Under the pieces are notes generated by a model. It worked only from the letters and a program-made list of their open reading frames with translations. It did no database searches and had not been told where the DNA came from. This document shows, in pieces, positions 5,822-58,333 of a DNA stretch of 64,000 nt (position 1 is its first letter; each line of letters starts with the position of its first letter). The DNA is from Kangiella sp. (GTDB taxonomy: Bacteria > Pseudomonadota > Gammaproteobacteria > Enterobacterales > Kangiellaceae): the NCBI GenBank assembly GCA_028284185.1, contig JANQSG010000018.1:179642-243641 (forward strand). Direction: 5' to 3'. A program made the translations under genes and the position numbers.

Positions 5822-6080
5822 CTTCATAATCTTCATAAAAGGATCCTTGTCATCCCCGCACACGACTAACAGGGAAGTTAGGAATTAGAATAATGCAGGA
5901 GCAATTATCGGGTGAGGATTCATTTCAGGTTGCCAGTAAAAAATTTACTTTGGCAGGAAGCCCAAATATGGCACCACTCCGGTCAATAGGCACCTTTTTT
6001 ATAGCCAAGCGTTAGCTATTTATCGCTATTTTTTAACACTAACTGCTATTATCAGGGAAAACCCAGCAGCGAATCTCGTT

Positions 6081-44754: not shown

Positions 44755-46107
44755 TTACGGGGTTACAAAATCATCAGCTAAGACAACATTAAGTGGTGTG
44801 CCACCGCCAATATTATCTCTGGCAATGATGGTGTAGATACCGCCATTTGCTAAAGTGATCACTGCAGGGCCTATTGCGGGAGTTTTTGAACCTTGTGCGG
44901 TAACAATGACATCATAGTCACCAGCCGCAACCGATAAGATTCCAGTTTCTTGCTTGAAGCCTACACCGCTAAAATTGGGATCAATGGTGGAAATATCGGC
45001 TGCTGGAGCAACAAGATATAAATCTACCAAGCCCGCAGAAGGCGAAGCATGGACAATTCTTAATTGAGCTTCAGTAGCGATGGGGCGAACCTGATCAACA
45101 ATAACCAATGGTTCAATGCTTGCGAGTTCGTTTACGGCTAATATCGAATAATTATTGCCTGCTTCTAAACTTAAATCAGCGTTGATAACAGCTGGAGTGG
45201 TAGTTCCTGTTGGTACAACTTTAACATTATAATCATTTGCTGCTACGCTTAAAAAGTTTGAAAAATTAGGGAAAACAACATTTGAAAGCAATGGGGATAT
45301 AAAGCCATCATTAACCACAATATCTACAGCAGGAGCATCAGGTGACAGATGAAAGACTCGCAGGTTGTTAGTTTGAGCAGTATCTAATAAAGTTAAATTA
45401 CCATCGCCGGTGGTCGCTATGAGGTTTACTGGATTGGTACCAGGGCCTGTATTGGTAACAGCAACAACGTTGAGTAGCAATCCTTCAGGTAGTGTTATAG
45501 TACCACTATCATAGACCACATTTTTACTGCCTGTTGGTGTGATTCGAATTTGATATTCGCCTGCGTTAATATCTGTTGGTGATAAGTTGTCTTTAAAACC
45601 AAGAGTTGTTGTTGGTGAAATTGCAGAAATATCATCTCCAGGTGCAGTAAGATAAATATCAACGGTGGGAGCGTTTGATGCGGCGTGAACAACTTGCAAG
45701 GTTAATTGACCTGCAGCTGGTGCTATGTTGTTTTGTGATAAAATAAGTGGTTCGATGGAAGTGGTTTCATTTAAGGCGATAACGGTGTATAGCTCATCAG
45801 TATCAAGTGCTAAATCAACAGGACCTATTACAGCTACATTACCGTCAGGGGTGATACCATCAACCTGTACAGAGTAGGTTGCAGTATTTAATTCAACTCT
45901 TGGTGATGCATTGGCGAAATCTAAGTTGGTAATAGCATTAGAACCATTTACTTGGATGTTAACTAGTGGTGCATCTTGTGATGCATGAACTACTTGGAGT
46001 AACGCTTTACCAGGGGTTAGTGTTTCGATGAGACTATTATTGTCATTGCTACAAGCAATGAGGATAACTGTGGTAATACATAATAAAAACATTTTCTTGA
46101 ATAACAT
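44755..46107 (-). CDS. DUF4397 repeat lipoprotein
   Basis: 450 residues. A strong ribosome site AGGAGG precedes the ATG. Lipoprotein signal MLFKKMFLLCITTVILIAC (Cys19). Four repeats of about 100 residues follow, each beginning like LQVVHASQDAPLVNI, LQVVHAASNAPTVDIY, LRVFHLSPDAPAVDI or LRIVHASPSAGLVDLY, and containing a Y-x-V-x-V-x-P-x-G strand: two DUF4397 domains. A beta-sandwich surface lipoprotein is likely; function unknown. It is divergent from ybgA. Confidence 0.9.
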   Translation of the reverse strand: MLFKKMFLLCITTVILIACSNDNNSLIETLTPGKALLQVVHASQDAPLVNIQVNGSNAITNLDFANASPRVELNTATYSVQVDGITPDGNVAVIGPVDLALDTDELYTVIALNETTSIEPLILSQNNIAPAAGQLTLQVVHAASNAPTVDIYLTAPGDDISAISPTTTLGFKDNLSPTDINAGEYQIRITPTGSKNVVYDSGTITLPEGLLLNVVAVTNTGPGTNPVNLIATTGDGNLTLLDTAQTNNLRVFHLSPDAPAVDIVVNDGFISPLLSNVVFPNFSNFLSVAANDYNVKVVPTGTTTPAVINADLSLEAGNNYSILAVNELASIEPLVIVDQVRPIATEAQLRIVHASPSAGLVDLYLVAPAADISTIDPNFSGVGFKQETGILSVAAGDYDVIVTAQGSKTPAIGPAVITLANGGIYTIIARDNIGGGTPLNVVLADDFVTP

Positions 46108-46180
46108 AAGAACCTCCTATAAGTTTCTTTATAGAAAGTCGCATTAGATTGGTGAATAAAAGGTGGAGAAAAAGTGAATT

Positions 46181-46213
46181 TTTCACGAAGACTTCACGTC
46201 AACTTCTCAAAAT
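46181..46213 (+). promoter_or_regulatory. Three in-phase 11-bp direct repeats upstream of ybgA-phrB
   Basis: TTTCACGAAGA (46181-46191), CTTCACGTCAA (46192-46202) and CTTCTCAAAAT (46203-46213) abut exactly with 11-bp period. The first two fit nTnnAC(A/G)nnnn, the pattern I recall for the CarH operator (nTnnACAnnnn). A GTGAA/TTCAC inverted repeat covers the left edge. Confidence 0.45.
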
Positions 46214-46220
46214 AAATAAC

Positions 46221-47168
46221 ATGCAGAAAATAAAAATTGCAATTAGTTCCTGCTTAATAGGCAACCAAGTTCGTTATGATGGTGGTCATAAACGTTCTAA
46301 GTATTGTTTGGATGTGATGTCCGATTGGTTTGAGTATCAACCCATTTGTCCTGAAATGGGTATTGGGATGCCAAGTCCAAGACCTCCCATTCATTTAGTC
46401 AGTATCAATGATGATATCAGGGTACAACAAGTAGATGACCATGCCATAGATGTTACTGCTGATTTGAAGGACTATGCTAAACGAACTTTATCCAAAATTA
46501 GGGATATATCGGGTTATATAGTAATCCGTAATTCACCAAGTTGTGGTATGGAACGGGTCAGGGTCTATCATGAAAATGGCAACCCGACAAATCTTTCTTC
46601 TCAAGGCGCTTATATCGGCGAGTTAATGCAGCTTCGTCCTGAGTTACCAGTTGAAGAAGAAGGACGTTTACAAGATCCAAAGTTGAGGGAAAATTTTATT
46701 ACACGAGTGTTTGCCTATGATGAATGGAATCGAACTGTGGTAAAACAACCTGAATTAAAAAACTTAGTGGCATTTCATAGTCGCTATAAATATTTAATCA
46801 TGGCACATAGCTATAAAGCTTACCGGGAATTGGGACAGCTTGTCGCTAACGATGGCTCAAAAAGTATTCCGAAATTAATTAGTGACTATGAAGCATTATT
46901 AATGCAAAGCCTTAGAAAGATAGCATCGTCAAAGTCACATACCAATGTGCTTTATCATATTTTTGGATACTTAAAGAAAAATTTAAGTAGCGAAGCCAAA
47001 CAGGAAATTATTAATGTTATAGAGCAATATCGTAGTGGTATTGTCACCTTAATTACCCCTATCACTTTGGTTAATCATTATCTTAAGCAATTTGGTAGTG
47101 ATTATATTCAAAATCAAGCTTATCTAAATCCACATCCCATTGAATTAGGGTTAAGGAATTATTTGTGA
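46221..47168 (+). CDS. ybgA: YbgA-like protein (DUF523 + DUF1722)
   Basis: The ATG 46221 is chosen (MQKIKIAISSCLIGNQVRYDGG); the upstream GTG adds unrelated residues reading through the promoter repeats. 315 residues. The N-terminal DUF523 (about 1-150) has Cys in SSCLIG, CPEMGIGMPSPRPP and NSPSCGMERV, possibly binding metal or an Fe-S cluster. The C-terminal DUF1722 (about 165-315) starts LVAFHSRYKYLIMAHS. The family is genetically linked to photolyase (ybgA-phr in E. coli), as here. The biochemical role is unknown. Confidence 0.92.
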   Translation: MQKIKIAISSCLIGNQVRYDGGHKRSKYCLDVMSDWFEYQPICPEMGIGMPSPRPPIHLVSINDDIRVQQVDDHAIDVTADLKDYAKRTLSKIRDISGYIVIRNSPSCGMERVRVYHENGNPTNLSSQGAYIGELMQLRPELPVEEEGRLQDPKLRENFITRVFAYDEWNRTVVKQPELKNLVAFHSRYKYLIMAHSYKAYRELGQLVANDGSKSIPKLISDYEALLMQSLRKIASSKSHTNVLYHIFGYLKKNLSSEAKQEIINVIEQYRSGIVTLITPITLVNHYLKQFGSDYIQNQAYLNPHPIELGLRNYL

Positions 47169-48562
47169 CAATGAATAATACTCAATTGGTTTGGTTTCGG
47201 CAGGATCTTAGGCTTGAAGATAATCCTGCACTTTATGCTGCCAGCCAGAAAGGACATGTAATAGCCGTATATCTTGAAGCAACCAAACAACATCAATTAC
47301 ACCATGAGTCACAGGCTAAAATGGGCTTAAGGCTCGATGCAGTAAAAGCGCTTAGACAAGCATTAAACAAATTATCGATACCATTGATTTATCAAGAAGT
47401 ATCAGTTTTTGACGAAAGTCCACAGGCTTTATTAAATTTAGCCAACCAATTTTCATGCAAATCGCTATACTTTAATAATGAGTATCCGCTTAATGAGGTT
47501 ATTCGAGATAACAAAGTAGAAAAGCTATTTAATGAAAATAATTTGCATACAATACGTTTCGATGGTGATTTGGTACTCAAACCAAGCAAAGTTAGAAACT
47601 TGAAAGATAAGCCTTATAAAGTTTTTTCTGCTTATAAGAAAGCCTGGTTACAGGAGTTTAAAGCTATTCCTCAAGGCGTGTATCCCAAACCCAAAAAGCA
47701 GCTATGGGATCTTGCTGAGTGTGAACAGAATGATATTGTAAATCCTTATAACTATCGGGATGATTTGTGGCAGTCAGGAGAAAAGAATATTAATGCAAAA
47801 CTGAAGCAGTTTTTGCCAAATTTGTTTGGCTATGCTGAAGATAGAAATATTCCTTCAATTCAAGGAACCAGCTGCTTATCACCATATCTGGCGATTGGTA
47901 CTATTTCAGCAAGGCAATGTATTCAAGGCATTTTTGATGCTTATCAAACAGATATTGAAAAAATCTATCAAGATACCTGGTTATCTGAATTAATCTGGCG
48001 TGAATTTTATCGTCAGATATTAATTGATAATTATAAGCGTTTAAGCAAGCATCAACCCTACAAGCAAAAATCAGAATCTTGGCTGAATAATGATATCGCC
48101 ATAGAACGATTTGAGGCATGGAAAAATGCACAAACCGGCTTCCCGATTGTTGACGCTGCTATGCTTCAACTCAAGCAAACTGGTTGGATGCATAATCGGT
48201 TAAGAATGATCAGTGCAATGTTTTTAAATAAACTCTGTTTGGTTGATTGGCGTTGGGGCGAAAAATATTTTATGCAGCATTTAATTGACGGTGATTTCGC
48301 TTCTAATAATGGTGGCTGGCAGTGGTGTTCTTCGACTGGCGTTGATTCGGTACCTTATTTCCGTATCATGAACCCGATTACTCAATCCAAGCGATTTGAT
48401 CCAACAGGTGAGTTCATTAAAAAAATTTTACCGCAATTAGAATCTTTGGACTCAAAACAAATACATTTTCCTGATAATCATGTAAGAAAAACATTAGGCT
48501 ACCCTGAACCAATTATTGATTATAAGTCAGCACGAGAAACTGCCTTATCATTACTGGCATGA
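47165..48562 (+). CDS. phrB: Deoxyribodipyrimidine photolyase
   Basis: Blue-light-driven repair of cyclobutane pyrimidine dimers. 465 residues: N-terminal antenna domain (LVWFRQDLRLEDNPALYAAS) and FAD-binding helical domain (GTSCLSPYLAIGTISARQC, WLSELIWREFYRQIL, GFPIVDAAMLQLKQTGWMHNR, QWCSSTGVDSVPYFRIMNP). Class I CPD type. Start GTG 47165 with AAGGA 7 bases upstream, overlapping the ybgA stop by 4 bp; ATG 47171 is the alternative. The 3' end overlaps the convergent gene by 43 bp. Confidence 0.96.
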   Translation: MTMNNTQLVWFRQDLRLEDNPALYAASQKGHVIAVYLEATKQHQLHHESQAKMGLRLDAVKALRQALNKLSIPLIYQEVSVFDESPQALLNLANQFSCKSLYFNNEYPLNEVIRDNKVEKLFNENNLHTIRFDGDLVLKPSKVRNLKDKPYKVFSAYKKAWLQEFKAIPQGVYPKPKKQLWDLAECEQNDIVNPYNYRDDLWQSGEKNINAKLKQFLPNLFGYAEDRNIPSIQGTSCLSPYLAIGTISARQCIQGIFDAYQTDIEKIYQDTWLSELIWREFYRQILIDNYKRLSKHQPYKQKSESWLNNDIAIERFEAWKNAQTGFPIVDAAMLQLKQTGWMHNRLRMISAMFLNKLCLVDWRWGEKYFMQHLIDGDFASNNGGWQWCSSTGVDSVPYFRIMNPITQSKRFDPTGEFIKKILPQLESLDSKQIHFPDNHVRKTLGYPEPIIDYKSARETALSLLA

Positions 48563-49104
48563 GTAGTAAGATTTTGTAGTAATTTGATAAATCCAGAGTC
48601 CATCGTTTTCTTTCCAAACCATATATTCCAGTAAAGATTATCGCAATCAGGATCATCTATGGAGTTGAATTTTTTTCCATTAAGATAAACATCAGTATGA
48701 GTTGTAAAGTGAAGTACATCATAGAAATCACCTTTTGAAGCATCTTGGTAGCTATTATTAAGTTTATGATAAGAAGTTAAACACTGTGCTAATTGGGTTT
48801 TAGTTAAATTCTTATTTAGATATTCTTCAGCACCATCTGAAAAATCTTTTCCTTTAACTTTTCTTAAATAATGGAATCTTACCAATTTAACTTGATCACT
48901 GAATATCGAATCAAATTTATTACAATTTGGACTGTAAAGACCTAGTAGCACTATATCAAAGAACCATGCTTTAGTAATTTTTTGTTGAGAGCATAATTCA
49001 AAACCAATATTACTGTATTCGATAGTCGTTGGTAGTTTATGTGAATTATTTGCATTGACGGAAAAAGATATTAATAAAAATATCAAAAAAACTAAAAATC
49101 TCAT
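48520..49104 (-). CDS. Chalcone isomerase-like family exported protein
   Basis: 194 residues with a signal peptide (MRFLVFLIFLLISFSVNA). The mature part has the chalcone-isomerase-like (Chalcone_3) outline: FELCSQQKITKAWFFDIVLLGLYSP, LVRFHYLRKVKGKDFSDGA, and LYWNIWFGKK near the end. It probably binds a fatty-acid-like ligand rather than a flavonoid; homologues recur in light/oxidative lipid clusters. It overlaps the upstream NTF2-like gene by 4 bp and phrB at the 3' end. Confidence 0.82.
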   Translation of the reverse strand: MRFLVFLIFLLISFSVNANNSHKLPTTIEYSNIGFELCSQQKITKAWFFDIVLLGLYSPNCNKFDSIFSDQVKLVRFHYLRKVKGKDFSDGAEEYLNKNLTKTQLAQCLTSYHKLNNSYQDASKGDFYDVLHFTTHTDVYLNGKKFNSIDDPDCDNLYWNIWFGKKTMDSGFIKLLQNLTTHASNDKAVSRADL

Positions 49105-49658
49105 AGCGAATCTCTTATCTTTCTAACTATATATCCGATATAAGGTAAGTGTTGATAAAAGCCTTCAGCGCCATCCCAGTAATCTTGATGTAATATGACT
49201 TTACCATTTGTATTAAACCTTAATTGGGTCATGCCTATAGATTTTGAATTAATGACTCTACCTCTAGCCTCAAACCGCATATGCATAATCCATCTTATAT
49301 AGTAGTCGTTGTCACTAGCTGCTAAATCAAGAATATCGACTGTAGTAATTTCAACTTTTTTAGCAGTTTCTTGCATATAGGAAACTAAAGTGTCAATGTC
49401 AGAAATAGTGGTGAAGGTATCATTAAAATAAAATTTGTCAGCATAGAGCTGACGAATATTTTCTTCAGTGGCTCCTTGCTTAAAGTCAGAAAACACTAGA
49501 TTGAATTTTTCAATCACATCTTGTTGCTTTACTGTTGTTTGGATAGAGTCTAGCTTATTTAAAAAATCATAGACTCTATTATTATAAGAACTGGTATCTT
49601 TTGCCATGGAACAACCCTGTATTAATAAAATAACAAGTAAATATACAACTAATTTCAT
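49101..49658 (-). CDS. NTF2/SnoaL-like lipoprotein
   Basis: Start at ATG 49656-49658, the first codon giving a compact lipoprotein signal (MKLVVYLLVILLIQGC); an ATG four codons upstream is possible. 185 residues. The mature protein is NTF2/SnoaL-like: QLYADKFYFNDTFTTISDI, then YYIRWIMHMRFEARG, then HQDYWDGAEGFYQHLP. Its WDGAEGFYQHLP..G..VRKIR ending is, from memory, typical of members found beside Cfa/DUF1365 genes. Translationally coupled to the chalcone-isomerase-like gene and divergent from the desaturase. Confidence 0.82.
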   Translation of the reverse strand: MKLVVYLLVILLIQGCSMAKDTSSYNNRVYDFLNKLDSIQTTVKQQDVIEKFNLVFSDFKQGATEENIRQLYADKFYFNDTFTTISDIDTLVSYMQETAKKVEITTVDILDLAASDNDYYIRWIMHMRFEARGRVINSKSIGMTQLRFNTNGKVILHQDYWDGAEGFYQHLPYIGYIVRKIRDSL

Positions 49659-49748
49659 TGGTATAACCATCTAATTTTTTATTAACTTTAACTAATAGCC
49701 TGTAAATAAAGTGTGAATTATATTATCTAATTGCTTTCATTTAGTTTT

Positions 49749-49792
49749 ATTCACAACAATTTCACGTTGATTTGCATAAATTGTTCAAAAAA
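49749..49792 (+). promoter_or_regulatory. In-phase 11-bp repeats in the divergent promoter of the desaturase operon
   Basis: ATTCACAACAA (49749-49759), TTTCACGTTGA (49760-49770), TTTGCATAAAT (49771-49781) and TGTTCAAAAAA (49782-49792). The first fits nTnnACAnnnn exactly, the second with one change, and both TTCAC cores are 11 bp apart as upstream of ybgA. TTCACA could be a -35 box with CATAAA as -10. Confidence 0.45.
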
Positions 49793-49807: not shown

Positions 49808-50725
49808 ATGAAAAATTGGCTTGATAATGCTGAAAATCATATCGGCAGCCAAAGTTCTAACCTAGATCAAGTGGATTGGGGAAGGGTAATCCCTTTCATT
49901 TTATTACACCTAGTTTGCTTATTTGGACTTATAACTGGCGTTAGTACTACTGCTATCATAATTTGTATCGTGAGTTACTTGATCAGAATGTTTGCAATAA
50001 CTGCTTTTTATCACCGGTATTTTTCCCATAAAAGTTTTAAAACTCATAGATTAACTCAATTCCTATTTGCATTTTTGGGTACTACTGCTACTCAGCGAGG
50101 CCCATTATGGTGGGCTGCACATCATCGTCATCATCATATACATTCAGATACAGAAGCCGATAGCCATTCGCCTAAAGCCGGTTTTTGGAATAGCCATATG
50201 CTATGGTTCTTAAATAAAAGAAACTTTCCTACAAAATGGCAAAGGATAAAAGATTTTGCACAATATAAAGAGTTACGTTGGCTGGACCGCTTTGACATAA
50301 TTCCGCCGATTCTATTTGCCACAATGATATTCATACTCGGAATATTTATAGAAAATTATTTCCCGGAAGCTGGTGCCAGTCGTTGGCAAATCCTGATATG
50401 GGGTTATTTCATTTCAACATTAATGCTGGCTCATGTTACTTATAGCATAAATTCGGTTGCTCATCGCTGGGGCAGTAAACGTTTTGATACTCATGACGAA
50501 AGTCGTAATAATTTTTTTCTGGCTATTCTGACTCTTGGTGAAGGTTGGCACAATAATCACCACAAATTTCCTTCTTCAGCGCGACAAGGCATTTATTGGT
50601 GGGAATTCGATCTAAGTTATTATTTGCTTTGTTTGATGAAGGCCATGGGGCTAATTTGGGATGTTAAAAAACATGATTTGGCTAAGGTCAATCAAGAACA
50701 AGTCACAGAGAACTCTGCATCATGA
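49808..50725 (+). CDS. Membrane acyl-chain desaturase (acyl-CoA delta-9 desaturase family)
   Basis: 305 residues. Di-iron histidine boxes: HRYFSH (69-74), HHRHHH (105-110) and HNNHH (248-252), with extra His at about 219. Four membrane helices are visible (about 28-65 as a pair, 165-182, 195-215). Family members introduce a cis double bond into acyl-CoA or phospholipid acyl chains using O2. It is the first gene of the operon and overlaps the FAD enzyme by 4 bp. Confidence 0.93.
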   Translation: MKNWLDNAENHIGSQSSNLDQVDWGRVIPFILLHLVCLFGLITGVSTTAIIICIVSYLIRMFAITAFYHRYFSHKSFKTHRLTQFLFAFLGTTATQRGPLWWAAHHRHHHIHSDTEADSHSPKAGFWNSHMLWFLNKRNFPTKWQRIKDFAQYKELRWLDRFDIIPPILFATMIFILGIFIENYFPEAGASRWQILIWGYFISTLMLAHVTYSINSVAHRWGSKRFDTHDESRNNFFLAILTLGEGWHNNHHKFPSSARQGIYWWEFDLSYYLLCLMKAMGLIWDVKKHDLAKVNQEQVTENSAS

Positions 50726-51969
50726 ACATAGCTGTTATTGGAGCTGGAGTTTCGGGTATTACTGCAGCAGAAAGGTTAGCAGAAAATCACCAGGTCACTT
50801 TATTTGAAAAAGAATCAAAAGTTGGAGGGCATGCTGATACCCAACATATAGAGGTTGATGGCAAGCTACTAGCAGTAGATACAGGATTTATTGTTTTCAA
50901 TCCAGAGAATTATCCAACTTTCTTTGAATTGTTAAGGAAGTATAAAGTGCCTTATAAAGATAGTGATATGAGTTTTTCTGTATCCAATCAATTAAATGGG
51001 CTTGAATATAATGCTACATCCATCAGACAGTTATTTTGCCAGAAATCAAACTTATTTAAACTTAGCTTTTATCGAATGATATTTGATATCTTTAGGTTTT
51101 ACCGCGAAGCACCAAGTTTGCTTAATGATGACTTAGAGATAAGCTTAGGTGCTTATCTTAAGAAAAATAAATACAGTGAAAATTTTGTAACCAATCATAT
51201 TATTCCAATGACTTGTGCTTTATGGTCTGGTGATGCGGCTAGAATTATGGATTTTCCTGCACGATATTTAGTTGCTTTTATGAATAACCACAAAATGCTC
51301 CAGGTGTCTAATCGTCCAATATGGAAAACTATTGAAGGAGGCTCAGAAAAATATCTTTCGGCTATATTAGAAAATGCAAAGTTTGAAGTCGAAGCAGGTA
51401 TTGATATCAAATCTATTGAAAGAAGTGAGCAAAGTGTAAGTGTTAAGTTTGATGATAAAATTGCATATTTTGATAAGATTATTTTTGCTTGTCACTCTGA
51501 TCAGGCCTTGAATTTATTGGAAGAACCAAGTGATGAAGAACGGTCTGTGCTAGGTTCTATTCAATATCAAGAAAATGAAATCCTGTTGCACTCTGATGAA
51601 AATGCTCTACCAAAGAACAAGAGTGCTTGGGCGAGCTGGAATGTATTAATAGATAAAAAAACAACTGAACTTTGTCGTGTAAGTTACTATATGAATTTAT
51701 TGCAATCATTGGATGTTAAAACACCTATAATTGTTAGTCTTAATATGGCAGATAAAATTGATCCAAAGAAAGTATGGAAAAAAATTAATTATCATCATCC
51801 TATATATAATAAAAAAACCATTGCTGCTCAACAAAAGAAAGGCCTGATACAGGGTAAAAAAAATGCCTATTATTGTGGTGCTTATTGGGGGTGGGGCTTT
51901 CATGAGGATGGTGCTCTGAGTGGTAAACAAGCAGCTCAGCAGTTATTAAAGGATTCAACAAATGATTAA
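50722..51969 (+). CDS. FAD-dependent amine-oxidase-like oxidoreductase of lipid cluster
   Basis: 415 residues. Dinucleotide-binding start MNIAVIGAGVSGITAAERLA and acidic strand end VTLFEKESKVGGHADT; GFIVFNPENYPTFFELL follows. Towards the C-terminus YYCGAYWGWGFHEDGALSGKQAA closes the FAD site. This subfamily (NAD/FAD-binding, with DUF1365 and Cfa neighbours) is thought to desaturate or oxidise modified acyl chains; the exact reaction is inference. It overlaps the genes on both sides (4 and 8 bp). Confidence 0.92.
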   Translation: MNIAVIGAGVSGITAAERLAENHQVTLFEKESKVGGHADTQHIEVDGKLLAVDTGFIVFNPENYPTFFELLRKYKVPYKDSDMSFSVSNQLNGLEYNATSIRQLFCQKSNLFKLSFYRMIFDIFRFYREAPSLLNDDLEISLGAYLKKNKYSENFVTNHIIPMTCALWSGDAARIMDFPARYLVAFMNNHKMLQVSNRPIWKTIEGGSEKYLSAILENAKFEVEAGIDIKSIERSEQSVSVKFDDKIAYFDKIIFACHSDQALNLLEEPSDEERSVLGSIQYQENEILLHSDENALPKNKSAWASWNVLIDKKTTELCRVSYYMNLLQSLDVKTPIIVSLNMADKIDPKKVWKKINYHHPIYNKKTIAAQQKKGLIQGKKNAYYCGAYWGWGFHEDGALSGKQAAQQLLKDSTND

Positions 51970-52729
51970 GCAAGGATTTTATAAGGGACAAATTAGACAT
52001 AAACGCTATCAACCTAAGATACATCAGTTTAGCTATAAGATGTATTGGAGTTTGTTGGATTTGGATAAGCTGCAACAAACATTTAAACAAAATAAACTTT
52101 GGTCGATAGAGCATTGGAATTTGGTATCCTTTTTCCGCAAAGATTTCCACTATCTAGAAAATTTAACCAACAAGCAATCAATTATCGAAACTATTAAAAA
52201 ACGAACTGGCTATGATTTTATTGGTAAGGTTTATTTGCTCTCACACTTACGTTATTTGGGGTATAACTTCAACTCAGTGACTTTTTATTTTTGTATCGGT
52301 GAACGAGGTCTTGAATTTATTATATCTGAGATAACTAATACTCCTTGGGGGGAGCGTTACCCTTATATTCTCGATTGTAGAGAAATTAATGGTGAAAACT
52401 ATCAGTTTGATTTTAAGAAAGTTTTTCATATATCACCATTTATCAATATGGATATGGATTATCAGTGGGGTTTCTTTTTTTATAACGAAGAGCTCAGAAT
52501 TCATATGGTAGTAAGGAATCCAGAGCAAGGTAAAATTTTTGACGCTACTTTCACAGGCCATTTCTTACCATTAAATTCGAGCAATATGACTAAGATTGCA
52601 ATAAGACATCCATTGCAACCTATAAAAATGATTTTTGGTATTTACTGGCAAGCGATGAAAATTTGGTTAAAGCGAATACCAGTTTTTGATCATCCTGGAC
52701 GTTCTGATAAGCATTGCTGTAATAAATAA
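51962..52729 (+). CDS. DUF1365 family protein
   Basis: 255 residues, no membrane segment evident. Family hallmarks: YKGQIRHKRYQPKIHQFSYK at the start, YLLSHLRYLGYNFNSVTFYFC, NTPWGERYPYIL, KVFHISPFINMDMDYQW, and the C-terminal IFGIYWQAMKIWLKRIPVFDHP. Function unknown. The gene is almost always between an FAD oxidoreductase and a Cfa-type methyltransferase, as here. Confidence 0.95.
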   Translation: MIKQGFYKGQIRHKRYQPKIHQFSYKMYWSLLDLDKLQQTFKQNKLWSIEHWNLVSFFRKDFHYLENLTNKQSIIETIKKRTGYDFIGKVYLLSHLRYLGYNFNSVTFYFCIGERGLEFIISEITNTPWGERYPYILDCREINGENYQFDFKKVFHISPFINMDMDYQWGFFFYNEELRIHMVVRNPEQGKIFDATFTGHFLPLNSSNMTKIAIRHPLQPIKMIFGIYWQAMKIWLKRIPVFDHPGRSDKHCCNK

Positions 52730-52741
52730 GAGGAATATTAA

Positions 52742-54010
52742 ATGGAAGATTTTCAATTAACGGTCGAGATGGAAAAAAATAATATCAGGCCTTCCAGGCT
52801 CCAGACATTTATTCGAGCTAAGGTTATTGAACAATTAGCTCAAATAAAACAAGCAACAATATGGGTTGAAGACCCTGTGGGCAATTATGTGGTAGGAGAG
52901 AGCTCACAGTTGGAAGTCAGATTAAAAATCAATAACTTAGATTTTTATCAGCGAGTTGCACTACATGGAAGTATTGGTGCGGCAGAATCTTACATGCAAC
53001 AAGAGTGGCGAGTTGATGATTTAACAAAGTTGATACGAGTCTTTGTGATTAATCGTGATTTACTTGATGGTATGGAATCTGGTTTGGCTGCTTTTAAGAA
53101 TAACATTCTGAAATTTTGGCATTTTTTGAATCGCAATAATGTTGTTGGCAGTAAAAAGAATATTGCAGCCCACTACGATTTGGGTAATGAATTTTTTAAG
53201 TTGTTTTTAGATAAACACCTTATGTACTCTTCAGCAATTTTCACTGATAAGACAAATAATTTAGAACTGGCATCTGAGTTAAAAATTAAGACAGTTTGTG
53301 AAAAGCTTGATTTAAAGGAAAGTGACCATTTACTAGAAATAGGAACCGGTTGGGGTGGTATGGCTATTTATGCTGCTAAACACTATGGCTGTCAGGTGAC
53401 AACCACAACTATTTCAGAGCAACAATATCAATATGTTAAGAAACGAATTAAAGAAGAAAAACTAGAAAGTAAGATCCAATTACTCAAGAAGGATTATCGA
53501 TTGCTTGAAGGAAGTTTTGATAAGTTAGTATCTATAGAAATGATAGAAGCCGTAGGCCATCATTATCTTGATACTTATATAAATAAATGCAGTGATTTAC
53601 TAAAAGAAAATGGTTTAGCACTTATTCAAGCAATTACTATAGAAGATCATCGTTATCAGCAGGCTCTTAAGTCAGTTGACTTTATAAAGCGTTATATTTT
53701 CCCAGGAAGTTTTATTCCATGTGTTTCTGCTATTCTGCAGTCAGCTGCCAAGGTCAGCCAACTGCGGTTAATTAACCTAGAAGACTTTGGTGAAAGTTAT
53801 GCCAAAACCTTAAAAGAGTGGCGCTTGAGGTTTATGCAAAAAACGGATCAAGTTAGAGTCCAAGGATTTGATGAAGCTTTTATAAAAATGTGGGAATTCT
53901 ATTTTTGCTATTGTGAAGGTGGATTTATCGAGAAAGCTATTAGTGATGTGCATTTACTTTTTGCAAAGCCAATCAATAAGAGGCAACAATGGTTAGTCAA
54001 AACATATTAA
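52742..54010 (+). CDS. Cyclopropane-fatty-acyl-phospholipid synthase family methyltransferase (first copy)
   Basis: 422 residues. The N-terminal domain (about 1-125) is as in Cfa. AAHYDLGNEFFKLFLDKHLMYS (about 140), SAM motif LLEIGTGWGGMAIYAAKHYG, SIEMIEAVGHHYL, and RYIFPGSFIPCVSAI (the Cfa active-site region) follow. It transfers a methyl(ene) group from SAM to the double bond of phospholipid acyl chains; product may be cyclopropane or methylated alkene. GAGG precedes the start, and the 3' end overlaps the DUF2878 gene by 22 bp. Confidence 0.94.
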   Translation: MEDFQLTVEMEKNNIRPSRLQTFIRAKVIEQLAQIKQATIWVEDPVGNYVVGESSQLEVRLKINNLDFYQRVALHGSIGAAESYMQQEWRVDDLTKLIRVFVINRDLLDGMESGLAAFKNNILKFWHFLNRNNVVGSKKNIAAHYDLGNEFFKLFLDKHLMYSSAIFTDKTNNLELASELKIKTVCEKLDLKESDHLLEIGTGWGGMAIYAAKHYGCQVTTTTISEQQYQYVKKRIKEEKLESKIQLLKKDYRLLEGSFDKLVSIEMIEAVGHHYLDTYINKCSDLLKENGLALIQAITIEDHRYQQALKSVDFIKRYIFPGSFIPCVSAILQSAAKVSQLRLINLEDFGESYAKTLKEWRLRFMQKTDQVRVQGFDEAFIKMWEFYFCYCEGGFIEKAISDVHLLFAKPINKRQQWLVKTY

Positions 54011-54543
54011 ATAAATTGCTTAATTTTGGTTTGTTTCAACTCTTATGGTTCACCATCATACTTGGTGTTGCCAGTGATATGATTTGGCCTGCTTTATTAG
54101 CCTTTTTATCGTTTTTAATTATTCACTTTGTAACTAGCTATAATCCAGGTGAGGATGCTAAGTTAATTGTTATTAGTTTAGTACTAGGCTTGATTTTAGA
54201 TAGCATATGGCAATTAAGTGGTTTAATAGAATATAAACATTCAGCTCTATTTTTTCCATTTGCTCCTTATTGGATTTTATTACTTTGGATAGCTTTTGCT
54301 ATGACCTTAAAACACTCAATGCAATGGGTATTTCAATATAAAAAACTTGCTATAGTTTTTGCGGCTTTAGGTGGCACCTTATCCTATTTTGCTGCTGAAC
54401 GGCTCGGTGCTATTGAAATACTTCATCCATTTCTTGCGATGTTTTTTCTTTCTTTTAGTTGGGCCATTGTGATGGCAATCCTCGTAGACTATGAAGTATT
54501 CTTTTCTGCGGATTCTTCGAATAAGGAACTTCCTCTTGGCTAG
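53989..54543 (+). CDS. DUF2878 family membrane protein
   Basis: 184 residues, five to six helices. Recognisable: FQLLWFTIILGVASDMIWP, GLILDSIWQLSGLI, FAPYWILLLWIAFAMTLKHSM, and LGAIEILHP. Function unknown; recurrent partner of DUF1365/Cfa genes. Starts inside the Cfa gene (22 bp overlap). Confidence 0.9.
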   Translation: MVSQNILNKLLNFGLFQLLWFTIILGVASDMIWPALLAFLSFLIIHFVTSYNPGEDAKLIVISLVLGLILDSIWQLSGLIEYKHSALFFPFAPYWILLLWIAFAMTLKHSMQWVFQYKKLAIVFAALGGTLSYFAAERLGAIEILHPFLAMFFLSFSWAIVMAILVDYEVFFSADSSNKELPLG

Positions 54544-55312
54544 TTATGAATCATTGATAGTCTGTTTATTCTTGTGTATTGGTTTGCAACTGATAGCTTG
54601 GCTTTGGCAGATCAAAACCGAGAATACAGATATTGTGGATATTACTTGGTCATTGTTAATGGCTAGCTGTGGATTAATTTATTTCTTTTATAGTGCTAGA
54701 ACTAATTTTCACCATTATATAATTTTACTCATTCCAGTGATTTGGTATGGACGCTTAACTATTCAGTTAGTATTACGTTATCGAATTAAGCATGAAGATG
54801 GCCGTTATCGCCAGTTAAGGGCTCACTGGAAACATAATACTCAAACGAAATATTTGATTTTTTTCTTATTTCAAGCCTTTCTAGCCTTTCTATTTAGCAT
54901 TTCAGCTTATGGTTTAAGTCAAATTAACTCAGAACCAAATCTTTTAGATTGGATGGCAATAGGGGTTATTTTTATGGCTTTGATTGGAGTAACACAATCG
55001 GATTGGCAACTTTATCAATTCAAACGAAATCCTGATAATAAAGACCAGGTCTGTGATCGAGGCTGGTGGCGCTATTCTCGCCATCCAAATTACTTTTTTG
55101 AATGGTTGCATTGGCTTGCTTATCCAATGTTAGCTTTTTCTGAAGCAAACTTTTGGTATATGAGTGTTCTTCCATTGTTGATGTTAATTTTTCTGTTGAA
55201 ACTTACCGGAATCCCTTTTAATGAGGCACAAAATATCAGAAGTAAAGGTGATAAGTATCGCCATTACCAAAATCGAACCAATAAATTCTTCCCATTTATT
55301 CCTAAATATTGA
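54536..55312 (+). CDS. DUF1295 family membrane protein (steroid 5-alpha-reductase-like)
   Basis: TTG 54536 is taken as start: AAGGA lies 8 bases upstream and the overlap with the DUF2878 stop is only 8 bp. The in-frame ATG 54491 would create a 53-bp overlap. 258 residues, about six helices. VDITWSLLMA near the start, RYRIKHEDGRYRQLRAHW, and the C-terminal CDRGWWRYSRHPNYFFEWLHW with KGDKYRHYQNRTNKFFP are diagnostic of DUF1295. By homology an NADPH-dependent ene-reductase or methyltransferase-like enzyme acting on lipids. Confidence 0.92.
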   Translation: MASYESLIVCLFLCIGLQLIAWLWQIKTENTDIVDITWSLLMASCGLIYFFYSARTNFHHYIILLIPVIWYGRLTIQLVLRYRIKHEDGRYRQLRAHWKHNTQTKYLIFFLFQAFLAFLFSISAYGLSQINSEPNLLDWMAIGVIFMALIGVTQSDWQLYQFKRNPDNKDQVCDRGWWRYSRHPNYFFEWLHWLAYPMLAFSEANFWYMSVLPLLMLIFLLKLTGIPFNEAQNIRSKGDKYRHYQNRTNKFFPFIPKY

Positions 55313-55321
55313 GAAACTATT

Positions 55322-56356
55322 ATGTTAGCCCAAGCAATTAAATTGATAGAGAAAGGATTATTACCAGACACTTTAGTACGATCAGGAATTAAACGTCTTT
55401 GTGAACAACGCCTAAAAGAGCAGTATGCCAATGATTGTGAGCAACAAGCAGAGCAATATCATCAATTTTGGCAGGGGTTAAAACAAAGTCAGATAGCTAT
55501 TAAAACACAACAAGCTAATGAGCAGCATTATGAAGTACCAACAGAGTTTTTCAAATATGCACTTGGTAAAAATTTAAAATACAGTAGTTGTTTTTGGGAG
55601 CAAAGAATTAGTGATCTAACACAAGCTGAAGAAAAGATGCTTGAGCTTTACTGTGAGCGAGGAAATTTCTCAGATGGCCAAAAGATTCTAGAACTTGGTT
55701 GTGGTTGGGGTTCATTAAGCTTATATTTAGCGAAGAAATACCCTAAGAGCCAAATATTAGGTATTTCAAACTCGATAACGCAAGGCCAATATATCACGCA
55801 ACAAGCTAATTTACTTGGTCTGAATAATTTGAAGATTGTTACTCAGGATATTAATCAATTTGATTCTGTAGAAGAGTTTGATCGAATTATCTCTATTGAA
55901 ATGTTTGAGCATGTTCGAAATTATCAAGAATTATTTTCAAAAATTAGTTCCTGGCTTAAATCTGATGGCCAATTGTTTTTACATGTCTTTTGTCATCGTT
56001 ATCTAATGTATCCGTATGAAGAAGAGGGTGAAGATAATTGGATGGGTCGATATTTCTTTAGCGGTGGTCAAATGCCAGCAGCAGATACTTTTTTATTATT
56101 TCAGCAGGATCTACAGTTGGATAAACGCTGGCTGATTAATGGTCAACATTATGAAAAAACATCGAACGCTTGGTTAGCGAATATGGATAAGCATAGAGAG
56201 GAAATCATGCCAATTTTTGAGAAGACTTATGGTAAGGATTTTGCTCCTGTCTGGTTTCAGCGTTGGCGCATATTCTTTATGGCATGTGCTGAATTGTTCG
56301 GCTATGCTAAAGGCAATGAGTGGATGGTTGCTCATTATCGTTTTGTAAAAAGGTAA
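55322..56356 (+). CDS. Second Cfa/CNMT-like SAM-dependent methyltransferase
   Basis: 344 residues, a different subfamily from the first copy. NEQHYEVPTEFFKYALGKNL and KYSSCFWEQ resemble plant coclaurine N-methyltransferase-type Cfa relatives. SAM motif ILELGCGWGSLSLYLAKKYP (about 122) and SIEMFEHVRNYQELF follow; HVFCHRYLMYPYEEE and NWMGRYFFSGGQMPA lie in the lid region. It lacks the long Cfa N-terminal domain. Probably methylates an acyl chain or lipid product of the operon. 9 bp after the DUF1295 gene, 9 bp before the kinase. Confidence 0.92.
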   Translation: MLAQAIKLIEKGLLPDTLVRSGIKRLCEQRLKEQYANDCEQQAEQYHQFWQGLKQSQIAIKTQQANEQHYEVPTEFFKYALGKNLKYSSCFWEQRISDLTQAEEKMLELYCERGNFSDGQKILELGCGWGSLSLYLAKKYPKSQILGISNSITQGQYITQQANLLGLNNLKIVTQDINQFDSVEEFDRIISIEMFEHVRNYQELFSKISSWLKSDGQLFLHVFCHRYLMYPYEEEGEDNWMGRYFFSGGQMPAADTFLLFQQDLQLDKRWLINGQHYEKTSNAWLANMDKHREEIMPIFEKTYGKDFAPVWFQRWRIFFMACAELFGYAKGNEWMVAHYRFVKR

Positions 56357-56365
56357 GTCTGGCTA

Positions 56366-57649
56366 ATGACAAAAAAACCTAAAGGAATACATTATAAGCT
56401 ATTTAAGGTCATGGGAATCCAATTGGTCTTAATCAGTTTGGTAACTTTATTGGGTGTTTATGTGGCAGGAAAGGTTGTTGAAGACGTTTTAGTTAAGCAA
56501 GCTTTAGAAGGTGAAGCAGCTTTTTTTTGGGAACATTACGAAAAGGATGCTGATTTTAATTTACCTAATACTTTAAATTTAACAGGTTATTTCAGTCATA
56601 CTTCAAGTGTGATGTCTATTCCAAAACATCTTAACTTATTAGAACCTGGATATCATAGAGTCAACTTAGAGAATGGCCGTCCTTTAGTGCATGTTTCTGA
56701 TAATAATGGTAAACGTTTATATTTGGTATTTGAGGAGGGGCAGGTTTCACGTTTAGCCTTTTATTTTGGTATAGCTCCTTTGGCTTTTGTGTTATTGGTA
56801 ATTTATTTGCCGGCTTGGGTTAGTTATATGATGTCCAAGCGAGCTATTTCTCCGGTGATTAAATTGGCCAAGAAAATGGATGAAGTTCAAGTATCTGCAT
56901 CTTCTGATCTGGATTTGGATTTTTCTGATATGGAAAAAAATGCTGATGCAGAAGTCATCTCTTTGTTAGGTGCTTTCAAGCACTATGCTAGCCAAGTTAG
57001 AGAATACGTTAAAAGAGAAAAGAATTTTACTCGTTACGCCAGTCATGAATTAAGAACTCCTTTAGCTGTTATGAAAGGCTCGGTAGCCTTGTTAGAAAAG
57101 CAATCATTAGAAGCACACTCTCAGAAGGTCTTGAGCCGGATGAAAATGGTAATTTTGGATATGGAACATCTGATAGAATCATTATTAATTTTATCTCGTA
57201 ATCAATCAATTGTCGTACCAAATGAACTGGTAAATATAAATCAATTGATCGAAAGAGAGGTCGCACAGTTAAAAGAACAGAGTCAGCCGCACTCTGTTTC
57301 GATAGAACTCATACAAAAAGAAAAGGCTCATTTAAAAATTCCCGAGCGTTTACTTTCAATTTGTCTAAGTAATATTATTGGTAATGCCATTAATTATTCT
57401 CCTGGGGGTCATATAAAAATTATCGTCACCTGTTCAGGAGTTACTGTAAAAGATAATGGTATAGGTATGTCTGAAGAAATTTTAAGCAAAATTTTTGCAC
57501 CGTTTTATCGGGGTGATAGAGAAGATGAGATAGTTAGAGGGTATGGGCTTGGTATGTCCATAGTCAAGACCATTTGTGACCGCATGAATTGGCAGCTGGA
57601 TATTAAAAGTCAGTTGGGTAAAGGAACTAGTGTGAAGATTGGTTTATAA
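56366..57649 (+). CDS. Sensor histidine kinase
   Basis: 427 residues. Helix 1 at about 16-38, periplasmic domain of about 95 residues, helix 2 at about 134-156, a HAMP-like linker, HisKA with phospho-acceptor His227 (ASHELRTP), and HATPase with Asn340 (NIIGNAINYS) and DNGIGM (363-368). GYGLGMSIVK is the G2 box. As the last gene of the lipid operon it is probably tuned to membrane state, but the ligand is unknown. The cognate regulator is tail-to-tail, 3 bp away. Confidence 0.92.
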   Translation: MTKKPKGIHYKLFKVMGIQLVLISLVTLLGVYVAGKVVEDVLVKQALEGEAAFFWEHYEKDADFNLPNTLNLTGYFSHTSSVMSIPKHLNLLEPGYHRVNLENGRPLVHVSDNNGKRLYLVFEEGQVSRLAFYFGIAPLAFVLLVIYLPAWVSYMMSKRAISPVIKLAKKMDEVQVSASSDLDLDFSDMEKNADAEVISLLGAFKHYASQVREYVKREKNFTRYASHELRTPLAVMKGSVALLEKQSLEAHSQKVLSRMKMVILDMEHLIESLLILSRNQSIVVPNELVNINQLIEREVAQLKEQSQPHSVSIELIQKEKAHLKIPERLLSICLSNIIGNAINYSPGGHIKIIVTCSGVTVKDNGIGMSEEILSKIFAPFYRGDREDEIVRGYGLGMSIVKTICDRMNWQLDIKSQLGKGTSVKIGL

Positions 57650-57652
57650 CTT

Positions 57653-58333
57653 TCAAGGAGCCTCAATTTTAAGACCTAGACTAGGTAAGGTATGCAGTAA
57701 TTTTTCTGAAAATGGTTTGTCTATAACTTTCCGTAAATTATAAAGGTGGCTACGTAATACATCACTATTGGGTACTAAATCGCCCCAAAGCTCACGTTCA
57801 AGCTCTTGTTTAGTAACAACTTCAGGAGAGCGCCGCATTAATAACTTTAAAATATGCAAGCCCGTAGGTGATAATTTTAAAGTTTGTTGCTGACGTTTAA
57901 CGGTTAAAGTTTTGAGATTAAAGGTTAAATCATGAATTTCAAGAGTGGCTGCTTCTAAGTCACCCTTAAAGCGTCGAATAATTGCATTCAAACGAGCATC
58001 CAACTCTTCAAAATCAAATGGCTTAATTAAATAATCATCTGCACCTGCATCAAACCCTTCAAGTTTATCTTCAAGTTGATCGCGAGCGGTTAACATTAGA
58101 ATAGGTATATCTGATTGAGACTCATTACGTATTCTTTTACAAATTTCGAAGCCGTCTAAACCAGGAAGCATCACATCAAGTACTAATGCATCATATTGGT
58201 TTTCTAAAGCCAATTGTAAACCAGTCTTGCCGTCCATAGCGTAGTCCACTATGTAGCCACAGGCTTCTAGATATTCTCCTGTTGTTGCTGCTAATTCAGC
58301 GTGGTCTTCAACTAATAAAATACTGTAAGCCAT
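57653..58333 (-). CDS. OmpR/PhoB-family response regulator
   Basis: 226 residues. Receiver domain with phospho-acceptor Asp53 (VLDVMLPGLDG), acidic pocket (VEDH) and Lys104 (IKPF). The C-terminal winged helix (about 130-226) carries the DNA-reading ELWGDLVPNSDVLRSHLYNLRK. Likely partner of the adjacent kinase. It lies 17 bp downstream of yhbY on the same strand, so it may be co-transcribed with that housekeeping gene. Confidence 0.95.
   Translation of the reverse strand: MAYSILLVEDHAELAATTGEYLEACGYIVDYAMDGKTGLQLALENQYDALVLDVMLPGLDGFEICKRIRNESQSDIPILMLTARDQLEDKLEGFDAGADDYLIKPFDFEELDARLNAIIRRFKGDLEAATLEIHDLTFNLKTLTVKRQQQTLKLSPTGLHILKLLMRRSPEVVTKQELERELWGDLVPNSDVLRSHLYNLRKVIDKPFSEKLLHTLPSLGLKIEAP

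Follow-up and report, generated by a model that had tools for sequence, protein, structure and literature searches.

Furan fatty acids scavenge radicals and singlet oxygen, and the bacterial genes that make them have been worked out only recently (PMC7380195). According to that study, UfaM adds a methyl group to the cis-vaccenate chain of a phospholipid, and UfaD, which binds NAD/FAD and resembles phytoene desaturases, introduces a conjugated diene. The furan is formed with O2 by UfaO, a member of the DUF1365 family, and a second methyl comes from FufM. RPA2571, RPA2570 and RPA2569 are UfaD, UfaO and UfaM, a set shown to work (PMC7380195), and ufaM of Halomonas sp. YLGW01 gave a furan-acid intermediate in Escherichia coli (PMC12089945). 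The controls described for furan genes in the studies cited here are ChrR with a sigma factor, and LitR. Shewanella has ybgA, phrB and cfa in one operon behind an RpoE2 promoter, under RpoE2-ChrR (PMC4336711); the Vibrio cholerae cfa gene VC1122 is light-induced, in a model that puts 159 genes under ChrR-sigmaE (PMC5241685); and ufaM and phrB of Pseudomonas putida are under LitR-type control (PMC8508746). Here we analyse a 64,000-nucleotide stretch of Kangiella sp. (assembly GCA_028284185.1, contig JANQSG010000018.1; "the window"), which probably carries a furan-fatty-acid operon that is complete, likely as far as the dimethyl furan, and is governed by a two-component switch of its own. In literature searched short of most subscription journals, we recognised no published description of a two-component system governing furan fatty acid genes.

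The operon spans 49808-57649 and has eight genes, all on the + strand; every junction in the open reading frame (ORF) listing is an overlap or a gap of at most 12 bp, the non-overlapping ones measuring 12, 9 and 9 bp. A response regulator gene ends 3 bp beyond the last of them, on the opposite strand. The Pfam matches, in the order FA_desaturase, Amino_oxidase/NAD_binding_8, DUF1365, CMAS, DUF2878, DUF1295, CMAS and HisKA+HATPase_c, back each gene label in the operon:

49808..50725, + strand: membrane fatty-acid desaturase, head of the operon (PF00487; His boxes HRYFSH, HHRHHH and HNNHH read in the sequence)
50722..51969, + strand: UfaD ortholog, predicted FAD-dependent methyl-fatty-acyl desaturase (Pfam; 37-39% identity to the UfaD-position gene of six Rhodopseudomonas loci)
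51962..52729, + strand: UfaO ortholog (DUF1365), predicted O2-dependent furan-forming enzyme (Pfam; 29-31% identity in 6/6 Rhodopseudomonas genomes)
52742..54010, + strand: UfaM ortholog, predicted S-adenosylmethionine (SAM)-dependent fatty-acyl methylase, 422 amino acids (aa) (Cfa score, locus order, tree, active-site residues)
53989..54543, + strand: DUF2878 protein (Pfam; frequent in such operons within the order)
54491..55312, + strand: DUF1295 membrane-type protein, neighbour of FufM (Pfam, Steroid_dh also matching; same-strand adjacency in 21/32 other FufM-type loci)
55322..56356, + strand: probable FufM, a CNMT-like relative of Cfa and second SAM methylase, 344 aa (homolog survey, tree, active-site residues)
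56366..57649, + strand: sensor histidine kinase at the end of the operon (Pfam HisKA+HATPase_c; conservation in the genus)
57653..58333, - strand: OmpR-family response regulator, convergent, predicted partner of the kinase (Pfam Response_reg+Trans_reg_C; tandem homologs in families f30 and f40)

Identical gene content and order recur in all 20 Kangiella-genus genomes (the window genome and G001-G019; in G003 the operon is spread over two contigs, L013 and L014), so the layout is not a product of chance, and the tight eight-gene operon reported in a preliminary description of this DNA is borne out. That description gave the DUF1365 gene no role and did not mention the convergent regulator or the upstream ybgA, photolyase, SnoaL and chalcone-isomerase-like genes. 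The window genome also encodes FabA, so the head desaturase is not the sole source of unsaturation; it may supply or adjust the double bond.

Roles were assigned by comparison with six genomes of one phototroph genus, Rhodopseudomonas (g258), each of which has a UfaO-type gene at 29-31% identity; one of them, G532, has a FufM-type sequence identical to that of R. palustris JSC-3b. The order FAD gene-DUF1365-cfa is seen in five of the six loci, and in L214 a longer called ORF masks the DUF1365 frame. At these loci the window proteins share 37-39% identity with UfaD (six loci), 28-31% with UfaO (five) and 37-39% with UfaM (six), and their ufaD-ufaO-ufaM order is both the Rhodopseudomonas order and that of RPA2571-2569. 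Profile, identity, locus and tree agree in placing orthologs of all three together in the window operon. Since UfaD is described as an NAD/FAD-binding, phytoene-desaturase-like protein (PMC7380195), its role goes to the FAD gene and the membrane desaturase is rejected for it; by the same descriptions, the DUF1365 gene encodes the oxygenase. On these sequence comparisons, the UfaD, UfaO and UfaM roles are assignable to the FAD, DUF1365 and first Cfa-like genes. The preliminary description had proposed the logic of furan synthesis and held individual roles to be beyond assignment from sequence. That proposal is largely borne out: at the level of genes, the enzyme set, order and clades fit the published pathway (PMC7380195), and three roles are now assigned, with FufM probable.

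The two Cfa-like proteins were placed in a methyltransferase tree of 57 rows, drawn from 43 chosen loci and the window. It splits into a FufM-type clade of 21 rows (support 100/100), a UfaM clade of 29 rows (100/99) and true Cfa with 6 rows (83/73), with L222 a long branch beside the UfaM clade. Of the window proteins, the one of 422 aa groups with the UfaM orthologs of Rhodopseudomonas inside the UfaM clade, and the one of 344 aa groups with the Rhodopseudomonas FufM-type proteins inside the FufM-type clade. Against the Cfa equivalog NF008686 (cut-off, 400 bits) they score 257.5 and 156.6 bits, below the cut-off, and all six comparison Cfas score above it. Five positions, which we take to be active-site residues of E. 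coli Cfa with known roles (Cys139, Glu239, His266, Ile268 and Tyr317), read C/E/H/I/Y in 6/6 true Cfas. The UfaM clade has Gln at the His266 position in 9/9 rows and Cys139 in 0/9; the FufM clade keeps the His and has Phe at the Ile268 position in 8/8 rows and Ser at the Cys139 position in 7/8. In the window, the five residues are Ser/Glu/Gln/Ile/Tyr in the UfaM-type protein and Ser/Glu/His/Phe/Tyr in the FufM-type one, so that neither has the Cfa signature, and these residues fit methyl transfer without ring closure. The two Cfa-type methyltransferases of the preliminary description are indeed different, though both lie outside the true cyclopropane synthases; methyltransferase phylogeny, which it had named beforehand as able to refute it, leaves its proposal standing, with one protein in the UfaM clade and the other of FufM type. 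Four other CMAS matches in the window genome are weak (at most 39.6 bits), two of them barely above the family cut-off of 27.

The second methylase was surveyed in a phylum sample of 398 genomes (E of 1e-30 or better). Forty genomes match the CNMT-like protein; in 33 of them (window included) the match covers most of its length with an identity of at least 37%, and in seven it is partial, at 36% or less. Each of the six Rhodopseudomonas genomes has one full-length gene (42-44% identity), and it is with this only full-length FufM-type gene of the congeners that the window protein clades; RPA0924 itself lies outside the comparison. DUF1295 is the same-strand neighbour in 21 of the 32 FufM-type loci besides the window; it adjoins the gene in four of the six Rhodopseudomonas loci (L120, L121, L123 and L125), the neighbour in L122 and L124 being hidden by overlapping ORFs, and the 11 loci in which it is not adjacent all belong to family f60 or f64. 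UfaD and UfaO each have matches in 19 of the 32 fetched stretches; the 13 loci without them are seven of genus g130 (probably Bradyrhizobium; L105, L109 and L115-L119), two of f60 and four gammaproteobacterial ones. The CNMT-like enzyme is, by these comparisons, probably FufM. Arabidopsis AT4G33110/LIME1 is presumably a CNMT-like protein as well. Because it resembles FufM, it has been given the name AtFUFM1 (PMC10940516). In Chlamydomonas exposed to singlet oxygen, CFA1, CFA2, a DUF1365 gene and a DUF1295 gene are induced in a SAK1-dependent manner, CFA2 being tabulated once as coclaurine N-methyltransferase (PMC4067076). The operon places DUF1295 in the context of a pathway, which this SAK1-dependent algal response echoes.

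The kinase gene lies behind fufM in 20/20 genus genomes, which answers the survey of co-occurrence that the preliminary description had proposed. Its orthologs in all 19 other genus genomes are 52-61% identical to it, and in 18 of the 19 some 4-5 kb separate the start of the kinase gene from that of ufaO; in G003 the kinase is encoded on the contig holding the remainder of the operon. As an observation apart, the ortholog of G016 is split between two frames (L027, about 4692-5970), through a sequencing error or as a decayed gene. Beyond the genus, the best match in an order sample of 61 genomes (20 of the Kangiella genus and 41 others) has 28% identity and 126 bits, compared with at least 465 bits inside it. 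From sequence and model we infer two transmembrane helices in the kinase, with a small sensor between them. Its HisKA and HATPase_c domains, with Response_reg and Trans_reg_C in the neighbouring gene, make up an OmpR-type two-component pair. In a profile search of the phylum sample, with at most four first-look candidates scored per genome, the kinase matched in 8 of the 397 other genomes at E of 1e-70 or better. In families f30 and f40 the regulator (54-55% identity) is in tandem with the kinase in 7/7 loci, which argues that the window's kinase and OmpR-type regulator are partners. The string RSHLYNLRK, taken for the regulator's recognition helix, does not vary among the 11 regulators aligned.

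The predicted target of the regulator is a direct repeat, TTCAC-N6-TTCAC. The region between the divergent SnoaL-like and desaturase genes is poorly conserved by eye save for TTCAC repeats, and the predicted target promoters have direct repeats of 11-bp period. The boxes and the flanking genes that they face are as follows, the chalcone-isomerase-like and SnoaL-like genes being divergent from the operon and the ybgA-like and photolyase genes lying farther upstream:

49750..49765, + strand: predicted regulator box TTCACAACAATTTCAC facing the operon (exact TTCAC-N6-TTCAC)
49702..49717, - strand: second box, with one mismatch, facing the divergent SnoaL-like and chalcone-isomerase-like genes (repeat search, alignment)
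46182..46208, + strand: tandem boxes, one exact and one with one mismatch, upstream of ybgA-photolyase (repeat search, alignment)
46152..46178, - strand: tandem boxes, one mismatch each, facing the DUF4397 gene (repeat search)
49101..49670, - strand: SnoaL-like protein, predicted same regulon (Pfam; locus comparison)
48520..49104, - strand: chalcone-isomerase-like protein (PF16036), predicted same regulon (Pfam; locus comparison)
47165..48562, + strand: DNA photolyase, predicted same regulon (Pfam; locus comparison)
46221..47168, + strand: ybgA-like gene (2-thiouracil desulfurase and DUF1722), predicted same regulon (Pfam; box upstream)
44755..46107, - strand: DUF4397 protein, possible regulon member (Pfam)

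The exact box occurs three times in the window, where 0.10 are expected and none of 100 shuffles reaches three. Across 342 kb in 21 genus stretches there are 41 exact boxes, at three kinds of promoter only: the ufa promoter (20/20 stretches containing it), the ybgA-photolyase promoter (20/20 stretches, 17 exact and three, L015, L017 and L029, with one mismatch) and the one before an antiporter-regulator pair (3/3). Control patterns in the same stretches gave 0-2 matches for other spacings from 2 to 16 and 0-3 for permuted half-sites, and 325 kb in 20 loci of relatives contained no exact box. The opposite-strand box facing the SnoaL gene has one mismatch in 20/20, and at least 80% of rows have a TA...T element at equal distance behind both ufa-region boxes, on both strands. 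Of the four exact sites in the window genome, two are at this locus. The TTG start given for the ybgA-like gene is probably wrong, since the ATG at 46221 aligns with relatives, and the regulator box falls inside the TTG-start extension (46149-46221). Between box and regulator, three species have a gene for an NhaA-type Na+/H+ antiporter (L018 2897-4057, L026 12936-14105 and L028 12734-13882), identified by Pfam for L026 and by resemblance to the L026 ORF for the other two.

The distribution of ChrR, the singlet-oxygen anti-sigma factor, points to a change of regulator. UfaO is present in 44 of the 61 order-sample genomes, 20/20 in the genus and 24/41 outside it, and ChrR (TIGR02451 over its cut-off) in 21/61, namely in 21 of the 24 UfaO-bearing and none of the 17 UfaO-less genomes outside the genus; Fisher tests on these counts ignore kinship. 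No ChrR exceeded the cut-off in any of the 20 genus genomes, of which G002 is just 55% complete; G010 and G012 have weak cupin matches far under it. The kinase, the CNMT-like gene and DUF1295 were not found beside the furan genes in the loci fetched for 20 of these 24 UfaO-bearing genomes, among which L031 and L035 are truncated by contig ends. The extracytoplasmic function (ECF) sigma factor motif TGATC-N17/18-CGTA does not precede the operon; its sole match in the window, at 42626, is away from these genes (0.53 expected), and its three matches in the genus loci L011-L030 are all inside coding sequence (two in photolyase, one in the SnoaL-like gene). In two relatives (L035 and L039) an ECF-type motif precedes the DUF4397 homolog. 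On the best reading, the furan-fatty-acid/photolyase regulon has passed from ECF-ChrR control to that of a dedicated two-component system.

Both trees of furan enzymes group the genus with f30 and not with its own family (UfaM, 100/97; joined UfaD-UfaO, 96/93), which suggests transfer of the operon between the genus and f30 lineages, in either direction. The UfaD-UfaO tree holds 30 of 34 candidate rows, and with L088, L090, L093 and L095 (all f30/f40) left out because each lacked one called ORF, its grouping rests on two f30 rows of one genus. Three f30 furan loci, all from a single genus, have one-mismatch boxes TTCACYTGGGCRTCAC on the opposite strand, 80-100 bp upstream of their desaturase gene (L088 2894, L089 15429 and L091 14884), where the regulator may act in trans. 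The link between kinase and furan genes outside the genus is seen in one genome of a second gammaproteobacterial family, G248 (f42), where a DUF2878-DUF1295-fufM-kinase run is divergent from SnoaL with boxes between, and a separate ybgA-photolyase-ufaDOM run has a one-mismatch box directly upstream. A gene of about 318 codons, GAF/GGDEF-like by eye, lies between kinase and regulator in G248 (L098 7314-8270), and this two-component system may link to cyclic-di-GMP.

In the mechanism that we propose, UfaM would methylate an unsaturated phospholipid chain, the FAD protein UfaD would form a conjugated diene, UfaO (DUF1365) would insert oxygen from O2 to give the furan, and FufM would add another methyl to the ring, while substrate supply or a side step would fall to the head desaturase and DUF1295; this order is carried over to Kangiella from the described pathway. 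The membrane kinase would phosphorylate the convergent OmpR-type regulator, which would bind the TTCAC-N6-TTCAC repeats near the -35 position of the back-to-back promoters and switch on the furan operon, the SnoaL/chalcone-isomerase-like genes and the ybgA-photolyase operon. Since the kinase lies in the operon it would control, the predicted loop is self-reinforcing. The suggestion of the preliminary description that such a kinase could report membrane or oxidative state is strengthened, in that a partner, an operator and a regulon are now predicted, a support that bears on the circuit; photo-oxidative or membrane stress is the signal we infer. In a more specific version, which we consider less likely than not, the kinase would be a sensor in the membrane for photo-oxidised lipid or singlet-oxygen damage and would, in the form of a self-contained cassette, have taken over the ChrR regulon, with iso-branched dimethyl furan fatty acids as products. 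The iso-branching is predicted because K. koreensis is rich in iso-branched chains (iso-C17:1, 8.6%; PMC3035244). If this version is true, the kinase sits in an operon that it activates and reads the membrane state that furan lipids protect. The analysis names a candidate regulator and its predicted operator, and the compact operon of methylases, desaturase, oxygenase and two-component switch offers a system for testing how membrane photo-oxidation is sensed.

Different products can be imagined for the same genes. In favour of ordinary cyclopropane synthases, in an operon making cyclopropane or other modified chains without a furan, both Cfa-like proteins are members of the broad CMAS family and cfa is the annotation in related operons; their separate clades, scores under the Cfa cut-off, the changes of His266 to Gln and Ile268 to Phe in the UfaM and FufM-type clades, and the UfaD and UfaO encoded alongside make this very improbable. 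A pathway that ends at the monomethyl furan, the CNMT-like enzyme methylating another substrate, is unlikely; in its favour, identity to the Rhodopseudomonas proteins is only 42-44%, and the seven g130 loci have no UfaD or UfaO beside the gene. We prefer FufM because the FufM-type clade is single and well supported, UfaD and UfaO occur in 19/32 of the fetched stretches, and FufM likeness to AT4G33110/LIME1 has been published (PMC10940516). The enzymes might also make furan acids while the kinase-regulator pair is a passenger serving other genes, and the TTCAC repeats serve another regulator. Binding of the regulator to the box is a prediction, the pair is away from the furan genes in f30/f40, and the antiporter before the regulator in three species could hint at a salt or pH role. 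Yet the box precedes the antiporter-regulator pair in all three of those species and otherwise marks only ufa and ybgA promoters in the examined stretches, boxes and pair occur together in G248 too, exact boxes are absent from the 20 relatives' loci, where a close kinase homolog was not found, and one-mismatch boxes stand directly upstream of the regulator in four of the seven f30/f40 loci. We therefore consider a passenger pair quite improbable, and favour a dedicated switch.

Several observations weigh against a furan operon under such a switch. In f30/f40 the exact box is at neither the pair nor the furan genes, which lie apart, and one-mismatch boxes also occur in relatives (18 in 10/20 loci). 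Genome-wide, the box averages 6.4 per genome, equal to the reversed control at 6.4 (18 of the 20 genus genomes, excluding G002 and G003), so the predicted regulon is essentially local and the case for the operator rests on position and conservation. A loosened pattern is weak in the window, with 15 matches against 7.7 expected, a number reached by 1 of 100 shuffles, and the 20/20 counts are not 20 independent events, because the genus sequences share ancestry. Three UfaO-bearing genomes (G052, G058 and G060) have no ChrR over the cut-off and no kinase either. The FufM comparison uses orthologs from congeners, not the R. palustris CGA009 protein itself, and the published fatty acids of K. koreensis, in the portion of that report drawn on here, include no furan acid (PMC3035244).

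Among described systems, the UfaM-UfaD-UfaO-FufM set of Rhodobacter sphaeroides and Rhodopseudomonas palustris comprises the same enzyme families (PMC7380195), and Rhodopseudomonas shares the ufaD-ufaO-ufaM order and, in the readable loci, a DUF1295 gene next to the FufM-type methylase. In contrast to both, Kangiella has all of the genes in one operon, with a head desaturase and a kinase added, and where R. sphaeroides has ChrR we predict two-component control through the TTCAC box. Halomonas sp. YLGW01, also gammaproteobacterial, has ufaM, ufaD and ufaO consecutively, and the sections of that report drawn on here mention neither a kinase nor a second methylase (PMC12089945). The f30/f40 operons (desaturase-ufaD-ufaO-ufaM-DUF1295-fufM, six loci) have the same enzyme order, f30 being nearest in both trees, but their kinase-regulator pair is elsewhere where found, and the exact box was not found there, one-mismatch boxes being present in three loci. 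Shewanella RpoE2-ChrR likewise has an operon containing ybgA, phrB and cfa under joint control (PMC4336711), whereas in Kangiella, compared with the Shewanella and Vibrio systems, ChrR was not found and the ECF-type motif does not precede the operon; relative to ChrR-type relatives, the locus is also without their short-chain dehydrogenase gene and has SnoaL on the other strand. P. putida, too, places a furan methylase and a photolyase under a single switch, there a LitR-family regulator with short LOV proteins (LitR/PplR; PMC8508746), and in Kangiella the corresponding switch is predicted to be a membrane kinase with an OmpR-type regulator.

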